Below are positions 1,280 through 11,136 of a stretch of 24,812 nt of DNA, piece after piece. Source of the stretch: a virus. Each line of letters opens with the position of its first letter. Position 1 is the stretch's first letter. The notes under the pieces were generated by a model, which saw only the letters and a program-made list of their open reading frames with translations, had not been told where the DNA came from and did not search any database. The position numbers were made by a program, and so were the translations under genes. The DNA lies in the IMG/VR virus record IMGVR_UViG_3300025648_000081, positions 1 to 24,812 of that record; one strand, given 5' to 3'.

Positions 1280-1849
1280 TTAATGGTGTTTGCAAAGCGA
1301 ATGATCAGCGTAGTGTTTTTTGCCGCTGTCTGTGAGGGTATAGCATCCGCCACGTTGGCCAGTAATGTAGCGGTTATCGGTTGTTGGCTTGCTGTGTCTA
1401 AATTCCCAGGGCGGTGTTGGATTTTTATCTGCCCATAGTCCGGTTTTGTTGGCCTGGGCGGTGGTTTCTAGGTCTGCAATAGTTGGGTCGGTCAGATATT
1501 GGCGATATGCCCATGCGTTGCCTTTTTTGACTTGTTCGGCGTTGGCATCAATGCCGTTGCAGGTAATGCGGGCTAGGGTGCGGTTGTATTTGTCTTTGCC
1601 TTTGTCTTCGACGGTTGCGGTTTTTTTAAGGCATAATTTAGTTAGTGATTGCTTTGATTTTTGGCCAAATGTTTGGGATTTTTCGGGCGCGTCGATTTCG
1701 GTTAGGCGTATTTTAACGGGCTGTTTTTGTGCGTTTAGCACGGTTAGGGTGTCTCCGTCTGATATGCCTATGACTGTGCCGCTCCAGCTGGTGGCGTTTG
1801 CAATTAATGGCAATAAAAATAGTGCTGTTTTAAATGAGTTATTTATCAT
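1280..1849 (-). CDS. Secreted staphylococcal-nuclease-like (thermonuclease) protein
   Basis: A 189-residue protein with an N-terminal signal peptide (MINNSFKTALFLLPLIANA, probable cleavage after ANA) followed by an SNase domain (about residues 22-145). The active-site landmarks of the family are visible: the DGDTL aspartate, the arginine in IRLTEIDAPE with its Asp and Glu, and DKYNRTLARI with the second catalytic arginine. Family members are calcium-dependent phosphodiesterases that cut DNA and RNA. A C-terminal Cys-containing extension (GGCYTLTDSGKKHYADHSLC) follows, as in some bacterial and phage members. The ATG overlaps the end of the upstream secreted-protein gene by 11 nt. The signal peptide places it in the periplasm or outside. 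Position downstream of the repressor suggests expression in the lysogen; its role there is unknown. Confidence 0.9.
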   Translation of the reverse strand: MINNSFKTALFLLPLIANATSWSGTVIGISDGDTLTVLNAQKQPVKIRLTEIDAPEKSQTFGQKSKQSLTKLCLKKTATVEDKGKDKYNRTLARITCNGIDANAEQVKKGNAWAYRQYLTDPTIADLETTAQANKTGLWADKNPTPPWEFRHSKPTTDNRYITGQRGGCYTLTDSGKKHYADHSLCKHH

Positions 1850-3252: not shown

Positions 3253-3325
3253 ACACCAGTTTATGCACTGGGCTGATGCGTTGCTATTGGCTTGGTTGGC
3301 TACACTTTTTTACCGAGGTGATCTT

Positions 3326-3586
3326 ATGGACATACAAGCGGTTTTGATGGACAGGGCTAATTTGTCTGTCCGTGAGGGTCAGATTTTGGCTTTGATCTGT
3401 GAGGGGATGACCGATAAAGGGATTGCCCGTCATTTGGCGATTTCTTTGGGTACTGTTCATGCTCATATTGAGCATTTGTATTTAAAGATGGGTGTCCAGT
3501 CTGAGTCTATTAATGTCCGGTGTGCGGCGATTTCTAACGCTGTTTTGCGTGGGATGGTGACGCTGTCTTGGAGGCGCAATGCTTAA
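3326..3586 (+). CDS. Small LuxR/GerE-type helix-turn-helix protein
   Basis: An 86-residue protein made of little more than a GerE/LuxR DNA-binding domain: LSVREGQILALICEGMTDKG, then IARHLAISLGTVHAHIEHLY, matching the four-helix LuxR pattern. No receiver or ligand domain precedes it. The start at ATG 3326 is preceded by GAGGTG at good spacing; an upstream in-frame ATG at 3224 lies in the terminator and is rejected. It is the first gene after the early terminator and overlaps the next ORF by 8 nt. It probably controls phage transcription, but its target is not evident. Confidence 0.8.
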   Translation: MDIQAVLMDRANLSVREGQILALICEGMTDKGIARHLAISLGTVHAHIEHLYLKMGVQSESINVRCAAISNAVLRGMVTLSWRRNA

Positions 3587-3907: not shown

Positions 3908-3957
3908 TGTTTGGCGTAATCCTTTGCTTGTTGCGTAAGCCGGTCTTGGTGTCATGA
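3907..3957 (+). CDS. Possible 16-residue coupling peptide before the replication gene
   Basis: A minimal ORF (MFGVILCLLRKPVLVS) begins at a TGATG junction with the 55-residue gene and ends in an ATGA overlap with the replication protein start. It bridges the 50-nt gap exactly in frame. It may exist only to deliver ribosomes to the next gene; chance is a fair alternative. Confidence 0.3.
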   Translation: MFGVILCLLRKPVLVS

Positions 3958-6263
3958 GTCGCGGTAAAAAGATTGATTTTCAGCGCATTAATGATTTTGC
4001 GCTTTCTTCCTTTGAGTCATTGCTAAGGCAGTGGCTTCCTGATGGCCGTAAAAATGGGTCGGAATGGGTGTCGGTTAATCCGACCCGTGCAGACGGTCAT
4101 GCCGGTTCGTTTTCAGTCCATATCTTTAATGGGGTTTGGAAAGATTTTGCCAGTGGTGATGGCGGGTCTGACCCTATTTCTTTGTTTGCGTATTTGTTCC
4201 ATAGCGGCAACCAAGGGGCGGCGGCTAAGGAGCTGTGCGCGTTGTTTGGGCTGGATGTTGAGCCTAATAAAATTTTGCCTTTTGTTGATAAAAAACCGCG
4301 ATCTGCGTGGGTGGCTATTAGGCCGCCAGTGGATTGCGCTGCCCCGCATGTGGCTCATATTAAGCGCGGTCGGCCTGAGCGGGTTTGGTGTTATCGCGCG
4401 GCGGATGGTGCGGTGCTGGGGTATGTGTACCGTTTTGTTACGTCTGATGGGGGCAAAGAGGTTTTGCCGCTGGCGTGGTGTCGTAATGAACGCACGTTTA
4501 ATGAGGAGTGGCGGTGGATGTCATTTCCTGAGCCGCGATGGCTGTATGGTTTAGACCGTTTGGCGGCGCGGCCTGATGCGCCGGTGCTGGTGGTTGAGGG
4601 GGAAAAATGCGCGGAATTGGCGGCTGAGCATTTGCCGGATTTGGTTGCGGTGACGTGGCCCGGTGGTGGTAATTCGGTGCATAAGGTGGATTGGTCGCCT
4701 TTGGCAGGTCGGTCTGTTGTTATCTGGCCGGATTGTGATGCTCAGCGGAGTAAGGCGGGTGAGTTGTTGCCTGCTGAGGTTCAGCCAGGCATTAAGGCGG
4801 CGCATAAGATTGCACCTGCTTTGGTGGCGTTGGGTTGTAAGGTTTGGGTGATGGAGCTGCCTGAGCCGGGCGAAAAAAAGAACGGCTGGGATATTGCGGA
4901 CGCGGTTGATGAGGGGCTGATTGGCTCTGAGTTGGCTGCTTTTGTGCGCGGTAAGGCTCGCGTTTACGCGCAAGCGGGTGTTGGGGGGGCAACTAAATTG
5001 CATCCAGAGCCAGTACCCGCTAGCGCGGAGGCTGTGCCGTATCGGGAAGCTTGGCAAGATGGATTGATTCAAAAGCCACGCGGCGGTATTGAGGATTGCC
5101 GCGAAAACGTATTTTTAGTTTTGTCACGGCATCCGGCATGGGAGGGTGTGATCGGCTGGAACGATTTTACTAAGCGGATTGAGAAGATAAAACTGCCCCC
5201 GTGGGGCGGTCGGCTGGGCGAGTGGGAAACGCGCGATGATTTGGATTTGGGTTTATGGCTTGCCCAAAAGTGCGACCTGTTGATTAGGTCTGAGGCTTCT
5301 TTGGTGGCTGGCGTGTCAATGGCGGCTGACCGTAATAGTTTTCATCCGCCAAGGGAATGGCTGGAGGGTTTGGCTGCATGGGATGGTGTTAATCGGCTTG
5401 AGCATTATGTTAGTGATTGTGTAGGTTGTGATAACACGCGTTATGTGCAGCTGGTCGGTAAATATTTTTTGATTGGGATGGTGGCGCGGATTTTTCGGCC
5501 TGGCTGTCCTATGCAGTATATGCCTGTGCTTGAGGGCGCGCAGGGCATTGGTAAGTCTTCGTTTTGGCGCGCTTTGGGCGGGGAGTGGTTTCAAGAAACG
5601 CCATTTAAGCTGGGCGATAAAGACGCTTACATGCAGTTAAACGGGGCAATTTTGTATGAAATTGCGGAAATGGACTCGTTTAACAAATCTGAATCGACGC
5701 AAGTTAAAGCGTTTATCAGTCAACAAATTGACCGTTACCGCGAGCCGTATGCGCGTCGAACGGTTGACCGGCCACGCCAGTGTGTTTTCGCGGGTACTAC
5801 TAATCACGGCGAATATTTGAAAGATACCACGGGTAACAGGCGGTTTTGGCCGATTAAGGCCACCAGTGTGGATATTGATGCGCTGTTGGCCATTCGCGAT
5901 CAGCTGTTTGCTGAGGCGTTTTATCGTTTTAAATCCGGTGAGCAGTGGTACCCAAGCCGAGAAGATGAGGCGGCTCATTTTGTGCCGCAGCAGGATGAAA
6001 GGCGGATTGTTGATCCGTGGCTGTATCCGCTGATGGAGTGGCTGGAGGATGTTAATCAGCGCATGACGCGGGAATTTACTATTACTGATCTGTTGATGGG
6101 TGCGTGTAAGGTCGAGTTAAACAAGATTGATGGTAATCGGGGTATGGCTACCCGGATGGGTAATCTGATGACTGAGTTGCCGGGTTGGCAGCGCAAGCGC
6201 CGTTCTACGGGGTTTAGGGAGTGGGTTTGGGTGCGCCCTGAATCTGGCAAGGCGGAGTTTTGA
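3954..6263 (+). CDS. VapE-like replication protein: TOPRIM primase-like and superfamily 3-type helicase domains
   Basis: A 769-residue protein. Residues 1 to about 105 resemble the N-terminal region of phage primases but lack the zinc cysteines. A TOPRIM segment follows, with VVEGEK (E215) and VIWPDCD (D260, D262). The C-terminal half (about 445-700) is a virulence-associated-E type P-loop ATPase with Walker A EGAQGIGKSS (K534), a Walker-B-like ILYEIAEMD and the FAGTTNHGEYLKD motif with the arginine-containing TGNRRFWPI. Such proteins act as primase-helicases at phage and island origins. It overlaps the upstream mini-ORF by ATGA and is followed by the iteron-like repeat block, so it is the likely initiator or helicase of the phage. 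Confidence 0.85.
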   Translation: MSRGKKIDFQRINDFALSSFESLLRQWLPDGRKNGSEWVSVNPTRADGHAGSFSVHIFNGVWKDFASGDGGSDPISLFAYLFHSGNQGAAAKELCALFGLDVEPNKILPFVDKKPRSAWVAIRPPVDCAAPHVAHIKRGRPERVWCYRAADGAVLGYVYRFVTSDGGKEVLPLAWCRNERTFNEEWRWMSFPEPRWLYGLDRLAARPDAPVLVVEGEKCAELAAEHLPDLVAVTWPGGGNSVHKVDWSPLAGRSVVIWPDCDAQRSKAGELLPAEVQPGIKAAHKIAPALVALGCKVWVMELPEPGEKKNGWDIADAVDEGLIGSELAAFVRGKARVYAQAGVGGATKLHPEPVPASAEAVPYREAWQDGLIQKPRGGIEDCRENVFLVLSRHPAWEGVIGWNDFTKRIEKIKLPPWGGRLGEWETRDDLDLGLWLAQKCDLLIRSEASLVAGVSMAADRNSFHPPREWLEGLAAWDGVNRLEHYVSDCVGCDNTRYVQLVGKYFLIGMVARIFRPGCPMQYMPVLEGAQGIGKSSFWRALGGEWFQETPFKLGDKDAYMQLNGAILYEIAEMDSFNKSESTQVKAFISQQIDRYREPYARRTVDRPRQCVFAGTTNHGEYLKDTTGNRRFWPIKATSVDIDALLAIRDQLFAEAFYRFKSGEQWYPSREDEAAHFVPQQDERRIVDPWLYPLMEWLEDVNQRMTREFTITDLLMGACKVELNKIDGNRGMATRMGNLMTELPGWQRKRRSTGFREWVWVRPESGKAEF

Positions 6264-6363
6264 TGTTAGTGTTTTTGGCGGTGTTTGGGGCAATTACCAG
6301 GGATCGGCGCATGGGTCAAGTGCGTTCGGAAAAGGGTTGCCGTGGGCATTTTTTGGCTGTTTT

Positions 6364-6643
6364 CGTCCAACCTGTTTTTTGGGTTGCGAGGTTGGACGGG
6401 CAGGTTGGACGGCTGAAAGGCACAGTTGGCGTGGGTTCGTCCAACCGTCCAACCTCGTCCAACCTATTTCCTCGCGGGCGCGTGCGCGTACACGCGCGTA
6501 TATGTACGACCGTTATTTTTTACAAAATTATTATTTATTTTTTAAGTGACAAGGTTAGACGGTTGGACGGGGCTAGATGGGGTGCGGGTTGTAGCCGTCC
6601 AACCTGCTCGTCCAACCTTGATTTTTAATTTTTAGGTTGGACG
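6364..6643. repeat. Array of 9-bp elements GGTTGGACG / CGTCCAACC, candidate replication origin
   Basis: The gap between the replication gene and the next CDS (6264-6649) holds no convincing gene. It contains ten exact copies of one 9-bp element. CGTCCAACC starts at 6364, 6438, 6446, 6456, 6596 and 6609. GGTTGGACG starts at 6390, 6403, 6561 and 6635. A one-mismatch copy lies at 6553. The copies form a left and a right cluster around a GC-alternating inverted repeat (GCGCGT, AC, ACGCGC near 6486-6499) and an AT-rich tract (about 6514-6545). Iterons plus an AT-rich unwinding region next to a helicase gene is the classic theta-origin layout. The last copy also lies just upstream of the following gene, so autoregulation is possible. 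Confidence 0.7.
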
Positions 6644-6649
6644 TATTTT

Positions 6650-6865
6650 ATGAACGAACAGGAAAAAAAACGCCGCCAGTGGGCGTTGATTAAAGATCAA
6701 ACACCTGATGTTGCTGATTTTTTGATTCAGGTTAATAAAGTTTTTGGTAAACCCGCCGCTGTGCGTGTTGAGCTGGCCAGTGGTGAGGAGGTTGAATCGG
6801 GGTCGTTTGATGACGGCTGTTTAAATCCTAAATTTGTTAAATTGCGAGGTCGGCGTTATGGGTAA
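6650..6865 (+). CDS. Small unknown protein (71 residues) after the candidate origin
   Basis: Encodes MNEQEKKRRQWALIKDQTPD followed by ADFLIQVNKVFGKPAAVRVE and a basic C-terminus (FVKLRGRRYG). It is charged, with no membrane segment, and I recognise no family. It begins 6 nt after the last 9-bp repeat and overlaps the endolysin by 8 nt. The close spacing of a repeat to the start suggests that whatever binds the repeats may also control this gene. Confidence 0.65.
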   Translation: MNEQEKKRRQWALIKDQTPDVADFLIQVNKVFGKPAAVRVELASGEEVESGSFDDGCLNPKFVKLRGRRYG

Positions 6866-7406
6866 GTTGTCGGGTATGACTGTGGGGCAGTTGATTGCGG
6901 ATGTTATCCAGCGTGAGGGCGGTTTTGTGGATAACCCGCACGATAAGGGTGGGCCGACTAATTTTGGGATTACGCGGGCTACGTTGGAGATGTGGCGTAA
7001 TCATCCGGTGTCGGTGAATGATGTGCGTAATTTGACCAAAAACGAAGCAGAAACTATTTATAAAACGCTGTATTACTTGCATTCTAATATTTATTTGCTG
7101 CCAGACCCTATCCAGCCGATTGTGTTTGATATGGCGGTCAATTGTGGGGTTGAGGAGGCGGTTAAGATTTTGCAGTCGGTGATTAGTCGGCTGGGTAATC
7201 CGATTCTGGTGGATGGAAAAATTGCGGGAAAAACGCTGCAAGCGTGTCAAATTGCGGTCAGTGTCCATGGTGGTGGTGGCGTGGTCAATCGTTTGGTTGA
7301 GGCGCGGTGTAAGTTTTATCTGGGTTTGGTTTCTAAAAATCCTGATGATCAGGTGTTTTTAGACGGATGGCTTAATCGTGCCAATGCATTTTTGTTTGGG
7401 GTTTAG
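6858..7406 (+). CDS. GH108-family endolysin (N-acetylmuramidase)
   Basis: A 182-residue protein with the ZliS/GH108 signature: IQREGGFVDNPHDKGGPTNF, where E20 is the predicted catalytic glutamate, and the FGITRATL continuation. The C-terminal half matches the associated peptidoglycan-binding/helical region (FDMAVNCGVEEAVKILQ, then VNRLVEARCKFYLGLV and DQVFLDGWLNRA). These enzymes cleave the glycan backbone of peptidoglycan for host lysis. There is no signal peptide, so release would need a holin. I start at ATG 6858 (AGGTCGG upstream, 8-nt overlap) rather than the upstream in-frame codon at 6834. Unusually it lies before the Q-like gene and away from the holin-like genes. Confidence 0.9.
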   Translation: MGKLSGMTVGQLIADVIQREGGFVDNPHDKGGPTNFGITRATLEMWRNHPVSVNDVRNLTKNEAETIYKTLYYLHSNIYLLPDPIQPIVFDMAVNCGVEEAVKILQSVISRLGNPILVDGKIAGKTLQACQIAVSVHGGGGVVNRLVEARCKFYLGLVSKNPDDQVFLDGWLNRANAFLFGV

Positions 7407-9421: not shown

Positions 9422-9868
9422 ATGAAAGGTCGAAAGGCTCAATTGGTTTCTGGTGGTAATTTTGCTGCTTTGCCTTTGCATGATGAACCGGCTGCGGTGC
9501 ATCGTGCGCGGGCGGATGCGTTGCGGCCAGATTGGTTGAGCGAGGATGAATTGAAAGTTTGGGATCGGCTTGCTCCTGATTTGGCTATGTTGGGAAGGCT
9601 AAAGCCGCATTTTGTGGATGCATTGGCTGAGTATTGCATTGTCGTGCGTAAACTGGCGGATGCACGTAAATATTTAAATGATGCTGATTGGACGTATATC
9701 ACAACTGGCCGGAATGGGCAGCAGTATAAAAGCCGTCCAGAGGTTGCTCAATTGAATGACGATTGGCGCAAATGGCGGTCATTAGTGGGTGAATTTGGGC
9801 TTGCTCCTGTTGCTGACCGTGGGGTGCAGTCAGGGCAAAGCGATTTAATTGATGAATTTAATTATTGA
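9422..9868 (+). CDS. terS: Terminase small subunit, P27 family
   Basis: A 148-residue protein with the P27/HK97-type small terminase layout: a short flexible N-terminus, then RPDWLSEDELKVWDRLAPDL, a helical core (FVDALAEYCIVVRKLADARK), the NDADWTYITTGRNGQQYKSR segment and RPEVAQLNDDWRKWRSLVGE. The subunit recognises the packaging site and regulates the large terminase. GGTGGGG lies upstream of the ATG. Its stop overlaps the methyltransferase start as TGATG, so a methyltransferase lies between it and the large subunit. Confidence 0.9.
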   Translation: MKGRKAQLVSGGNFAALPLHDEPAAVHRARADALRPDWLSEDELKVWDRLAPDLAMLGRLKPHFVDALAEYCIVVRKLADARKYLNDADWTYITTGRNGQQYKSRPEVAQLNDDWRKWRSLVGEFGLAPVADRGVQSGQSDLIDEFNY

Positions 9869-11136
9869 TGAAAACTGTTGCAGTTGATTTGTTAGTGCCT
9901 TATGAGCGTAATACGCGCACTCATTCTGATGAGCAAATAGACCAGATTGTTGCAAGTATTACCGAATTTGGCTGGACTAACCCGATTTTGATTGATGGCA
10001 ATAACGGCATTATTGCGGGTCATGGTCGTGTTTTGGCGGCGCGTAAAATGCTCATTACTGAAGTGCCAGCGGTTAATTTGTCGCATTTGAGCGACGAGCA
10101 AAAGCGGGCGTACATTATTGCTGATAATCAGTTGGCTTTGAATGCTGGTTGGGATAAGGATTTGTTGGCTGCTGAAATTGCTGGTTTGCAAGCGGCTGGT
10201 TTTAATTTGGATTTGCTAGGTTTTAGTGCGGTTGATCTGGATAGTTTGTTGGCTGACATTGAGCCTATGTTGGGTTTGACTGATCCTGATGCTGTACCTG
10301 AATTGCCGGATGCGCCAGTTTGTAAATTGGGCGATGTTTGGTTGTTGGATAGGCATCGGTTGATGTGTGGTGACGCTACTGACAACAAGGCGGTTTCTGA
10401 GCTGTTGCAAGGTTGTATGGCTGATATGGTTTTTACTGATCCGCCCTATTTAATGGATTTTCATGGTGCGATTGGTGGGAATGGCAAAACAAACTCTAAG
10501 CACGGCAAAATTTTGAACGACAAAATGAACAAAGCTGATGGCGAAAAGTTTTTGCTATCCATTGCTAAGGTAATTAAAACGCATTGCCAAGGCGCGTGGT
10601 ATGTGTGTTTTTATCGGTTGGGCATTGATGGGATGATGAATGCTTTGACTGCTTGTGGTTTGAAGTGGCGCAATTTGATAATTTGGAAAAAAAACCATTT
10701 TAATTTGAGTAACTCAGATTACAAAGCTTTGTATGAGCCAAATGTTTATGGCTGGCAAGGCGATTATGAGCCAATTGTTTATGGCTGGAATGTTGACCAT
10801 AATTTTAATGGCAAAAAAAGCGAAGTGGATGTTTGGGATACGGCTATACCTTCGGTCTGGAAAATTAAAAAATCGCTTAAGTGTGATTTGCATCCAACCA
10901 TGAAGCCGGTGGCTTTGGTGGAACGGGCGATTTTGAATAGTTCTAAAAAGGGGCAGCTTGTTTTGGATTTGTTTGGCGGTTCAGGAACTACTTTGATTGC
11001 TTGTGAAACGAATGGGCGCACGGGGCGGTTGATGGAATTGTCGCCTAAATTTTGTGATGTGATTATTAGGCGTTGGCAGGAATTTACGGGTAAAACTGCC
11101 GTGCTTGAATCTGGGTTAAAGCCATTTGGCGAATGA
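9868..11136 (+). CDS. ParB-domain/DNA adenine-type methyltransferase fusion
   Basis: A 422-residue protein. The N-terminus (about 8-115) is a ParB/sulfiredoxin-like domain (LVPYERNTRTHSDEQIDQIV, then IIAGHGRVLAARKM). The C-terminus is a beta-class amino-methyltransferase: motif IV DPPY (D191-Y194) precedes motif I DLFGGSGTT (D367-G373), and HPTMKPVALVERAI lies between. It should methylate an exocyclic amine of A or C in DNA using S-adenosylmethionine. Inside the catalytic domain the segment YEPIVYGW is present twice in tandem (residues 289-299 and 300-310), which is unusual. It starts at ATG 9868 (TGATG). Encoded inside the terminase module, it probably protects or marks phage DNA around packaging. 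Confidence 0.9.
   Translation: MKTVAVDLLVPYERNTRTHSDEQIDQIVASITEFGWTNPILIDGNNGIIAGHGRVLAARKMLITEVPAVNLSHLSDEQKRAYIIADNQLALNAGWDKDLLAAEIAGLQAAGFNLDLLGFSAVDLDSLLADIEPMLGLTDPDAVPELPDAPVCKLGDVWLLDRHRLMCGDATDNKAVSELLQGCMADMVFTDPPYLMDFHGAIGGNGKTNSKHGKILNDKMNKADGEKFLLSIAKVIKTHCQGAWYVCFYRLGIDGMMNALTACGLKWRNLIIWKKNHFNLSNSDYKALYEPNVYGWQGDYEPIVYGWNVDHNFNGKKSEVDVWDTAIPSVWKIKKSLKCDLHPTMKPVALVERAILNSSKKGQLVLDLFGGSGTTLIACETNGRTGRLMELSPKFCDVIIRRWQEFTGKTAVLESGLKPFGE

Follow-up and report, generated by a model that had tools for sequence, protein, structure and literature searches.

A dense array of 9-bp repeats lies 100 bp after the stop codon of a vapE gene in the DNA analysed here, a stretch of 24,812 nucleotides from a virus (IMG/VR record IMGVR_UViG_3300025648_000081) that we call the window, and the question it raises is which protein reads these repeats and what for. 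The first-pass annotation of the locus had proposed a candidate phage origin adjoining a VapE-like primase-helicase, and the adjacency is plain from the coordinates, with vapE at 3954..6263 (+) and the array at 6364-6643. Judged by its gene content, the element is a tailed phage and not a PICI, because the window carries capsid and tail genes of its own among its terminase, portal, protease, major capsid, sheath and tape-measure-type genes. Three further genes deserve mention in their own right: an endolysin (Glyco_hydro_108) gene at 6858-7406 directly adjoins the replication module, an open reading frame at 9865-11136 between the terminase subunits fuses a ParB N-terminal domain (weak match) to an N6/N4 DNA methylase, and a thermonuclease (SNase) homologue with a signal-peptide-like start is encoded at 1280-1849 (-), near the left fragment end.

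The earlier description counted ten exact matches and one near match to GGTTGGACG within 280 bp, and an exact pattern search returned just these. The left arm (6364..6464) holds exact copies at 6364(-), 6390(+), 6403(+), 6438(-), 6446(-) and 6456(-), and the right arm (6553..6643) holds the near copy GGTTAGACG, one mismatch from GGTTGGACG, at 6553(+), followed by exact copies at 6561(+), 6596(-), 6609(-) and 6635(+). GGTTGGACG is the most frequent 9-mer in the window, its exact copies there are confined to the array, and sites with at most one mismatch number 20 against 7.7 ± 2.9 expected. The right arm is the mirror image of the left about an axis at 6503.5, which pairs 6364 with 6635, 6390 with 6609, 6403 with 6596, 6438 with 6561 and 6446 with 6553, so that 10 of the 11 sites are mirror-paired and 6456 alone is not. 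None of 300 shuffles of gaps and orientations reached five such pairs (shuffle mean 2.0), and no other inverted-repeat centre in the window comes near this axis, which scores 75/150 matches (runner-up 58, mean 34.8, sd 5.7). The outer inverted arms (6389-6414/6593-6618) agree at 96% and the inner ones (6438-6459/6548-6569) at 91%, whereas the intervening spacers of the window match at 27 of 87 positions, close to the chance level. A relative whose VapE is 61% identical and whose flank is sequenced (L009) carries, roughly 420 bp beyond the 3′ end of vapE, an array of the repeat GTGGGACA with exact inverted arms of about 80 bp, spacers included. Because the window spacers are at about chance although the arms of L009 are exact over about 80 bp, the comparison suggests that iteron sites are maintained while spacers drift; on the simplest reading one arm would begin as the inverted duplicate of its partner and thereafter drift everywhere but at the needed sites, and the L009 arms suggest either homogenisation or birth by inverted duplication.

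The distribution of such arrays was surveyed in two ways. A scan of viral contigs gave at least 119 stretches with two nearby copies of GGTTGGACG, and at least 79 clusters among the matches listed have four or more sites (three or more exact), the window included; among the matches listed, clusters whose DNA holds a closed VapE open reading frame have the array at the 3′ end of that gene in 59 of 59 cases. A motif-independent sample of 157 non-redundant vapE loci was gathered through VapE homology or named phage records, an array being scored where the 1 kb 3′ of vapE contained four or more copies of one 8-mer, in excess of shuffles (p ≤ 0.01). By this measure 101 of the 157 loci carry an array, as against 0/152 for regions upstream, 3/156 within the gene and 4/152 further downstream; the 56 loci without a significant array by the 8-mer test may have diverged iterons or other layouts, or may reflect low power of the test. 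Two features first noted as setting the array apart from simple direct iterons turn out to be ordinary in this family: both orientations are used in 100 of the 101 arrays, and the base at 6446 is indeed common to two adjacent copies (6438-6446 and 6446-6454), but the underlying 8-bp spacing is the commonest one (82 of 300 adjacent same-strand pairs). The repeat sequence varies between phages. Named complete phages with an array include Pseudomonas phages LPPA36 and Haddon (GGTGGGACAG), Marinobacter phage PS3 (GGGGTGACC), Paenibacillus phage Bob (TACTGCAACA), Staphylococcus phage IPLA35 (TGATGCAACA) and Bacteroides phage Bacuni_F1 (GGTAAACG). Relatives of VapE also occur in genome contigs of Betaproteobacteria, Methylomonas, Pseudomonas and others. 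Further viral scans returned 8 relatives for the L186 query and 0 for the L222 query, and a strict 27-base pattern run over bacterial genomes, too strict for the purpose, gave no match.

Several observations from the survey stand beside this pattern. A rule that co-resident prophages avoid identical iterons was considered and rejected, as genomes go both ways: the iterons differ in UBA931 (GGTAGGAC vs GGTATGGA), and N. autotrophicum, P. khorasanensis and GM80 hold two identical or near-identical copies. Similar GGTTGGACG arrays lie 3′ of an SF3 helicase gene of DUF5906 type, not VapE, in L014 (12390-12649) and L025 (1986-2247), the L025 helicase being typed by its resemblance to that of L014; against the profile of the VapE C domain, the C-terminal end of L014's protein scores only at chance level, and the common motif may reflect shared ancestry or convergence. 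In L017, 22 GGTTGGACG-like units follow one another head to tail as direct repeats, mostly in 8-bp steps, at 3265-3558 just 5′ of a tail-protein gene, and in L083 direct repeats of the same 9-mer lie inside an O-like/DnaD-like gene; as origins of the VapE kind L017, L083 and L091, all with direct repeats of the GGTTGGACG 9-mer, were set aside as unrelated.

The neighbouring protein (769 aa) combines a DnaG-type (TOPRIM) primase, an AAA+/SF3-like VapE helicase with its Walker A motif at residue 528 (Pfam VapE-like_dom, E 7e-77), and a C-terminal winged helix. Profile searches matched it to DnaG (1d0q, 2au3) and to SaPI PriRep (7pds), the helicase matching PriRep1 at E 2e-77. An AlphaFold model (pLDDT 85.9) gave Foldseek matches to 7pds (TM 0.75) and to the P. 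aeruginosa primase 5vaz, and the closest solved structure is that of SaPI PriRep1 with DNA. The C-terminal winged-helix domain spans codons 690-764 (6021..6245, +; model pLDDT 92) with its recognition helix at residues 729-741, and the C-terminal domain of PriRep1 is among its best structural matches at Z 6.7, a score tied with unrelated winged helices. We infer from fold and covariation that this winged helix is the reader of the iterons. At the other end of the protein, the beginning of the primase part (3954-4283) resembles the DnaG zinc-binding domain by profile (1d0q); because its first 110 residues contain a single cysteine, the primase part appears to be a zinc-less version of the DnaG type.

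If the C-terminal domain reads the repeat, the two should change together, and this is what 146 VapE/array pairs suggest. Motif similarity follows similarity in the C domain (residues 690-764) with a partial Mantel r of 0.40 (p 0.002) when helicase and primase are removed, whereas the corresponding values are 0.16 for the helicase and -0.05 for the primase. Two staphylococcal phages, L138 and L307, agree at 89% in the helicase domain but at only 61% in the C domain, and their iterons, TGATGCAACA and AAAGGGACG, are unrelated; near-identical helicases with different iterons and a diverged C domain make this pair a natural initiator/origin swap. A single residue stands out in the 86 arrays that can be aligned to GGTTGGACG: at residue 747, which opens the strand that follows the recognition helix, Arg goes with G at iteron base 4 in 9 of 9 cases and Lys or Gln with another base in 75 of 77. 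The association, picked from a scan of some 10 motif positions by some 100 residues, has a phi of 0.89, compared with 0.56 for the runner-up residue and a maximum of 0.52 in 400 matched simulations on a tree from the helicase domain alone. Of the two exceptions, one is the window, with R747 (codon at 6192-6194) and T4. Later loci agree, Arg going with G as the commonest base in 26 of 26 and Lys with another base in 10 of 10, mostly in close Pseudomonas relatives and hence in few independent events. Near-identical C domains can also go with different bases at position 4 (T in L044, C in L050), and variation at base 5 (GGTTAGACG) had no clear partner residue.

Between the arms lies a core of two parts. 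The two clusters do enclose an A+T-rich tract, as first noted, at 6512..6547, where 33 of 36 bases (92%) are A or T, a candidate melting region. The element earlier called a GC inverted repeat is present too, and is better named an alternating purine-pyrimidine tract: it runs perfectly for 31 bp (6478..6508), is the longest of its kind in the window (the next is 13) and is a candidate for a Z-DNA-prone or easily deformed element. A single-stranded hairpin was also considered for the core and dropped, as shuffled sequences fold equally well (z -0.18 for the window core). Alternation is a family-wide feature of these cores. Over the 133 arrays that have a central gap, the core's longest alternating run has a mean length of 18.7 bp, compared with 6.7 bp for control windows matched in length; significance is reached in 107 of the 133 cores, in both motif groups, and, when shuffles of the same core serve as the reference, in 105 of the 133. 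In 105 of 152 loci, against 17.7 expected, the longest alternating run anywhere in the locus lies in the 800 bp that follow the 3′ end of vapE, and the same placement is seen in 26 of 53 loci in which no repeat array was detected (6.3 expected). The order of the two parts depends on the motif, the alternating tract coming mostly before the A+T tract in the GGTTGGACG group (54 to 10) and mostly after it in the other group (26 to 13). Since the base composition of the tract tracks that of its locus (r 0.61), what VapE cores retain is alternation as a property and not the sequence itself.

Repeats of this kind might instead be operators, binding a transcription regulator that controls the genes after vapE, and the window does encode Cro/YdaS-like and LuxR-type HTH proteins, besides a 71-aa open reading frame right after the array (6650..6865, +); in the family 103 of 149 arrays precede a gene in the same direction. 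Yet the other 46 face a convergent gene, no sigma-70-like promoter was found in 6200-6900, no promoter or terminator in the array rose above shuffles, and an Rfam search gave no RNA. The constant neighbour is vapE, in every cluster among the matches listed whose DNA holds a closed VapE gene, and motif similarity tracks VapE's own C-terminal domain. The 71-aa protein, once suggested as a binding partner, is an unlikely one because its relatives in all retrieved loci (54%) are confined to L140 and L163, near copies of one virus, and it has no Pfam or PHROG match. We therefore regard an operator array as very improbable, although a regulatory role could coexist with an origin role where the next gene points the same way.

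That the repeats serve a conserved host factor common to many hosts, such as a nucleoid, partition or DnaA-like protein, would fit the recurrence of one 9-mer in many viral contigs and the origin of VapE relatives from phages of Betaproteobacteria, Methylomonas and others, but it is the least credible of the alternatives: the 9-mer is wholly different in close relatives such as L009, staphylococcal phages have two unrelated motifs, and DnaA-box-like sites (TTWTNCACA) are at chance level in the window, with none inside the array and the nearest at 6926. Alternatively, replication might begin elsewhere and the array might be a second element that governs copy number or incompatibility, as handcuffing sites and the crr of P4 do. 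P4 offers the precedent, having a separate region of the copy-control type (crr). The cognate site of P4 is mentioned in PMC6092414. Against this reading, to which we give as little credence as to the operator, the 24.8-kb window, itself a fragment beyond which a second array could lie, has no exact GGTTGGACG elsewhere, and the core has a layout of the melting type.

The array at 6364-6643 is thus very probably the theta replication origin of the phage or prophage, with the neighbouring VapE as its initiator. The original proposal of an origin used by VapE is strongly supported by comparison: by the position of the array beside vapE (101 of 157 loci, against 0 to 4 in the control regions), by a repeat that changes together with the C domain, and by a layout shared with PICI origins. 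In the mechanism we propose, the C-terminal winged helices of VapE would bind the GGTTGGACG iterons, as covariation and fold suggest; on the model of SaPI Rep and SV40 T antigen, one helicase hexamer would nucleate on each mirror arm, placing two opposed hexamers on either side of the core; the core, with its alternating tract beside the A+T-rich tract, would be distorted and then melted; and the DnaG-type primase of the same protein could prime both forks, giving bidirectional replication. A broader claim, to which we allow slightly less than an even chance, is that VapE phages share a general type of origin in which the iteron can be exchanged freely, is recognised by a small winged-helix domain and is partly predictable from the protein (747 reading base 4), and in which the core is conserved as purine-pyrimidine alternation. 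If this is true, a B-to-Z or similar transition would be part of double-hexamer origin opening. The alternating core offers a new way to test how helicases of this kind open a duplex, a long-standing question. Some 150 initiator/origin pairs with differing repeats could make the specificity of a self-loading helicase legible from natural variation and testable by single substitutions. They would also offer a simple route from sequence to the origins and replication compatibility groups of VapE phages, and hint at how satellites could share or avoid their helper's origin.

Known systems place this origin more closely. Lambda-type origins also have a phage initiator (O protein) that binds iterons, but these are direct repeats, whereas the window iterons are inverted and lie outside the initiator gene; origins of iteron plasmids (RepA/Pi type) differ in having direct iterons together with DnaA boxes, where the window has inverted iterons and no DnaA-box-like site in the array. 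The type I iterons of satellite P4 have the consensus GGTGAACAR, for which the window contains 6 sites with at most one mismatch against 6.7 expected, none of them in the array. In S. thermophilus phage Sfi21, a replication origin reportedly lies 3′ of the primase gene. The SV40 large T antigen origin, with which SaPI origins have been compared (PMC9894130), likewise has opposed repeats, and in both cases two hexamers are thought to be loaded head to head, but T antigen has an N-terminal DNA-binding domain and belongs to another helicase family and another host domain. SCCmec Cch2, like SaPI Rep, reads short repeats directly 3′ of its own gene via its C-terminal domain; it is a self-loading helicase whose isolated C-terminal domain binds the repeats (PMC7581432), and it differs in having only three 5-nt iterons, without mirrored arms.

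The closest counterparts are the SaPI and PICI origins, in which two iteron sets flank an A+T-rich region; one PICI pri-rep-ori of this layout was shown to drive autonomous replication of a plasmid (PMC6092414). The window shares with them the initiator-helicase gene directly upstream of the origin (PMC6092414), an initiator with a C-terminal DNA-binding domain, here predicted, and an iteron particular to each element (PMC6092414, PMC7581432, PMC9894130), as well as iterons in opposite orientations. It differs in being a tailed phage, with genes of its own for terminase, portal, capsid and tail sheath, in a primase part of DnaG/TOPRIM type (1d0q, 2au3, 5vaz) where SaPI primases are AEP, in arms that are mirror images to base-pair precision, and in the long alternating purine-pyrimidine tract of the core, a feature for which we found no description at the centre of such origins in the open-access literature searched. 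No open-access paper describing the origins of VapE phages was found either, and while the layout itself is already known from PICIs, within that literature its status as the standard origin among VapE phages from several phyla is new, as are the base-pair mirror geometry, the covariation of C domain and repeat, and the alternating core. In 2018 the layout was described as occurring in no bacterial replicon other than PICIs; by the present comparison, what was said to be PICI-only appears to be widespread in true phages.
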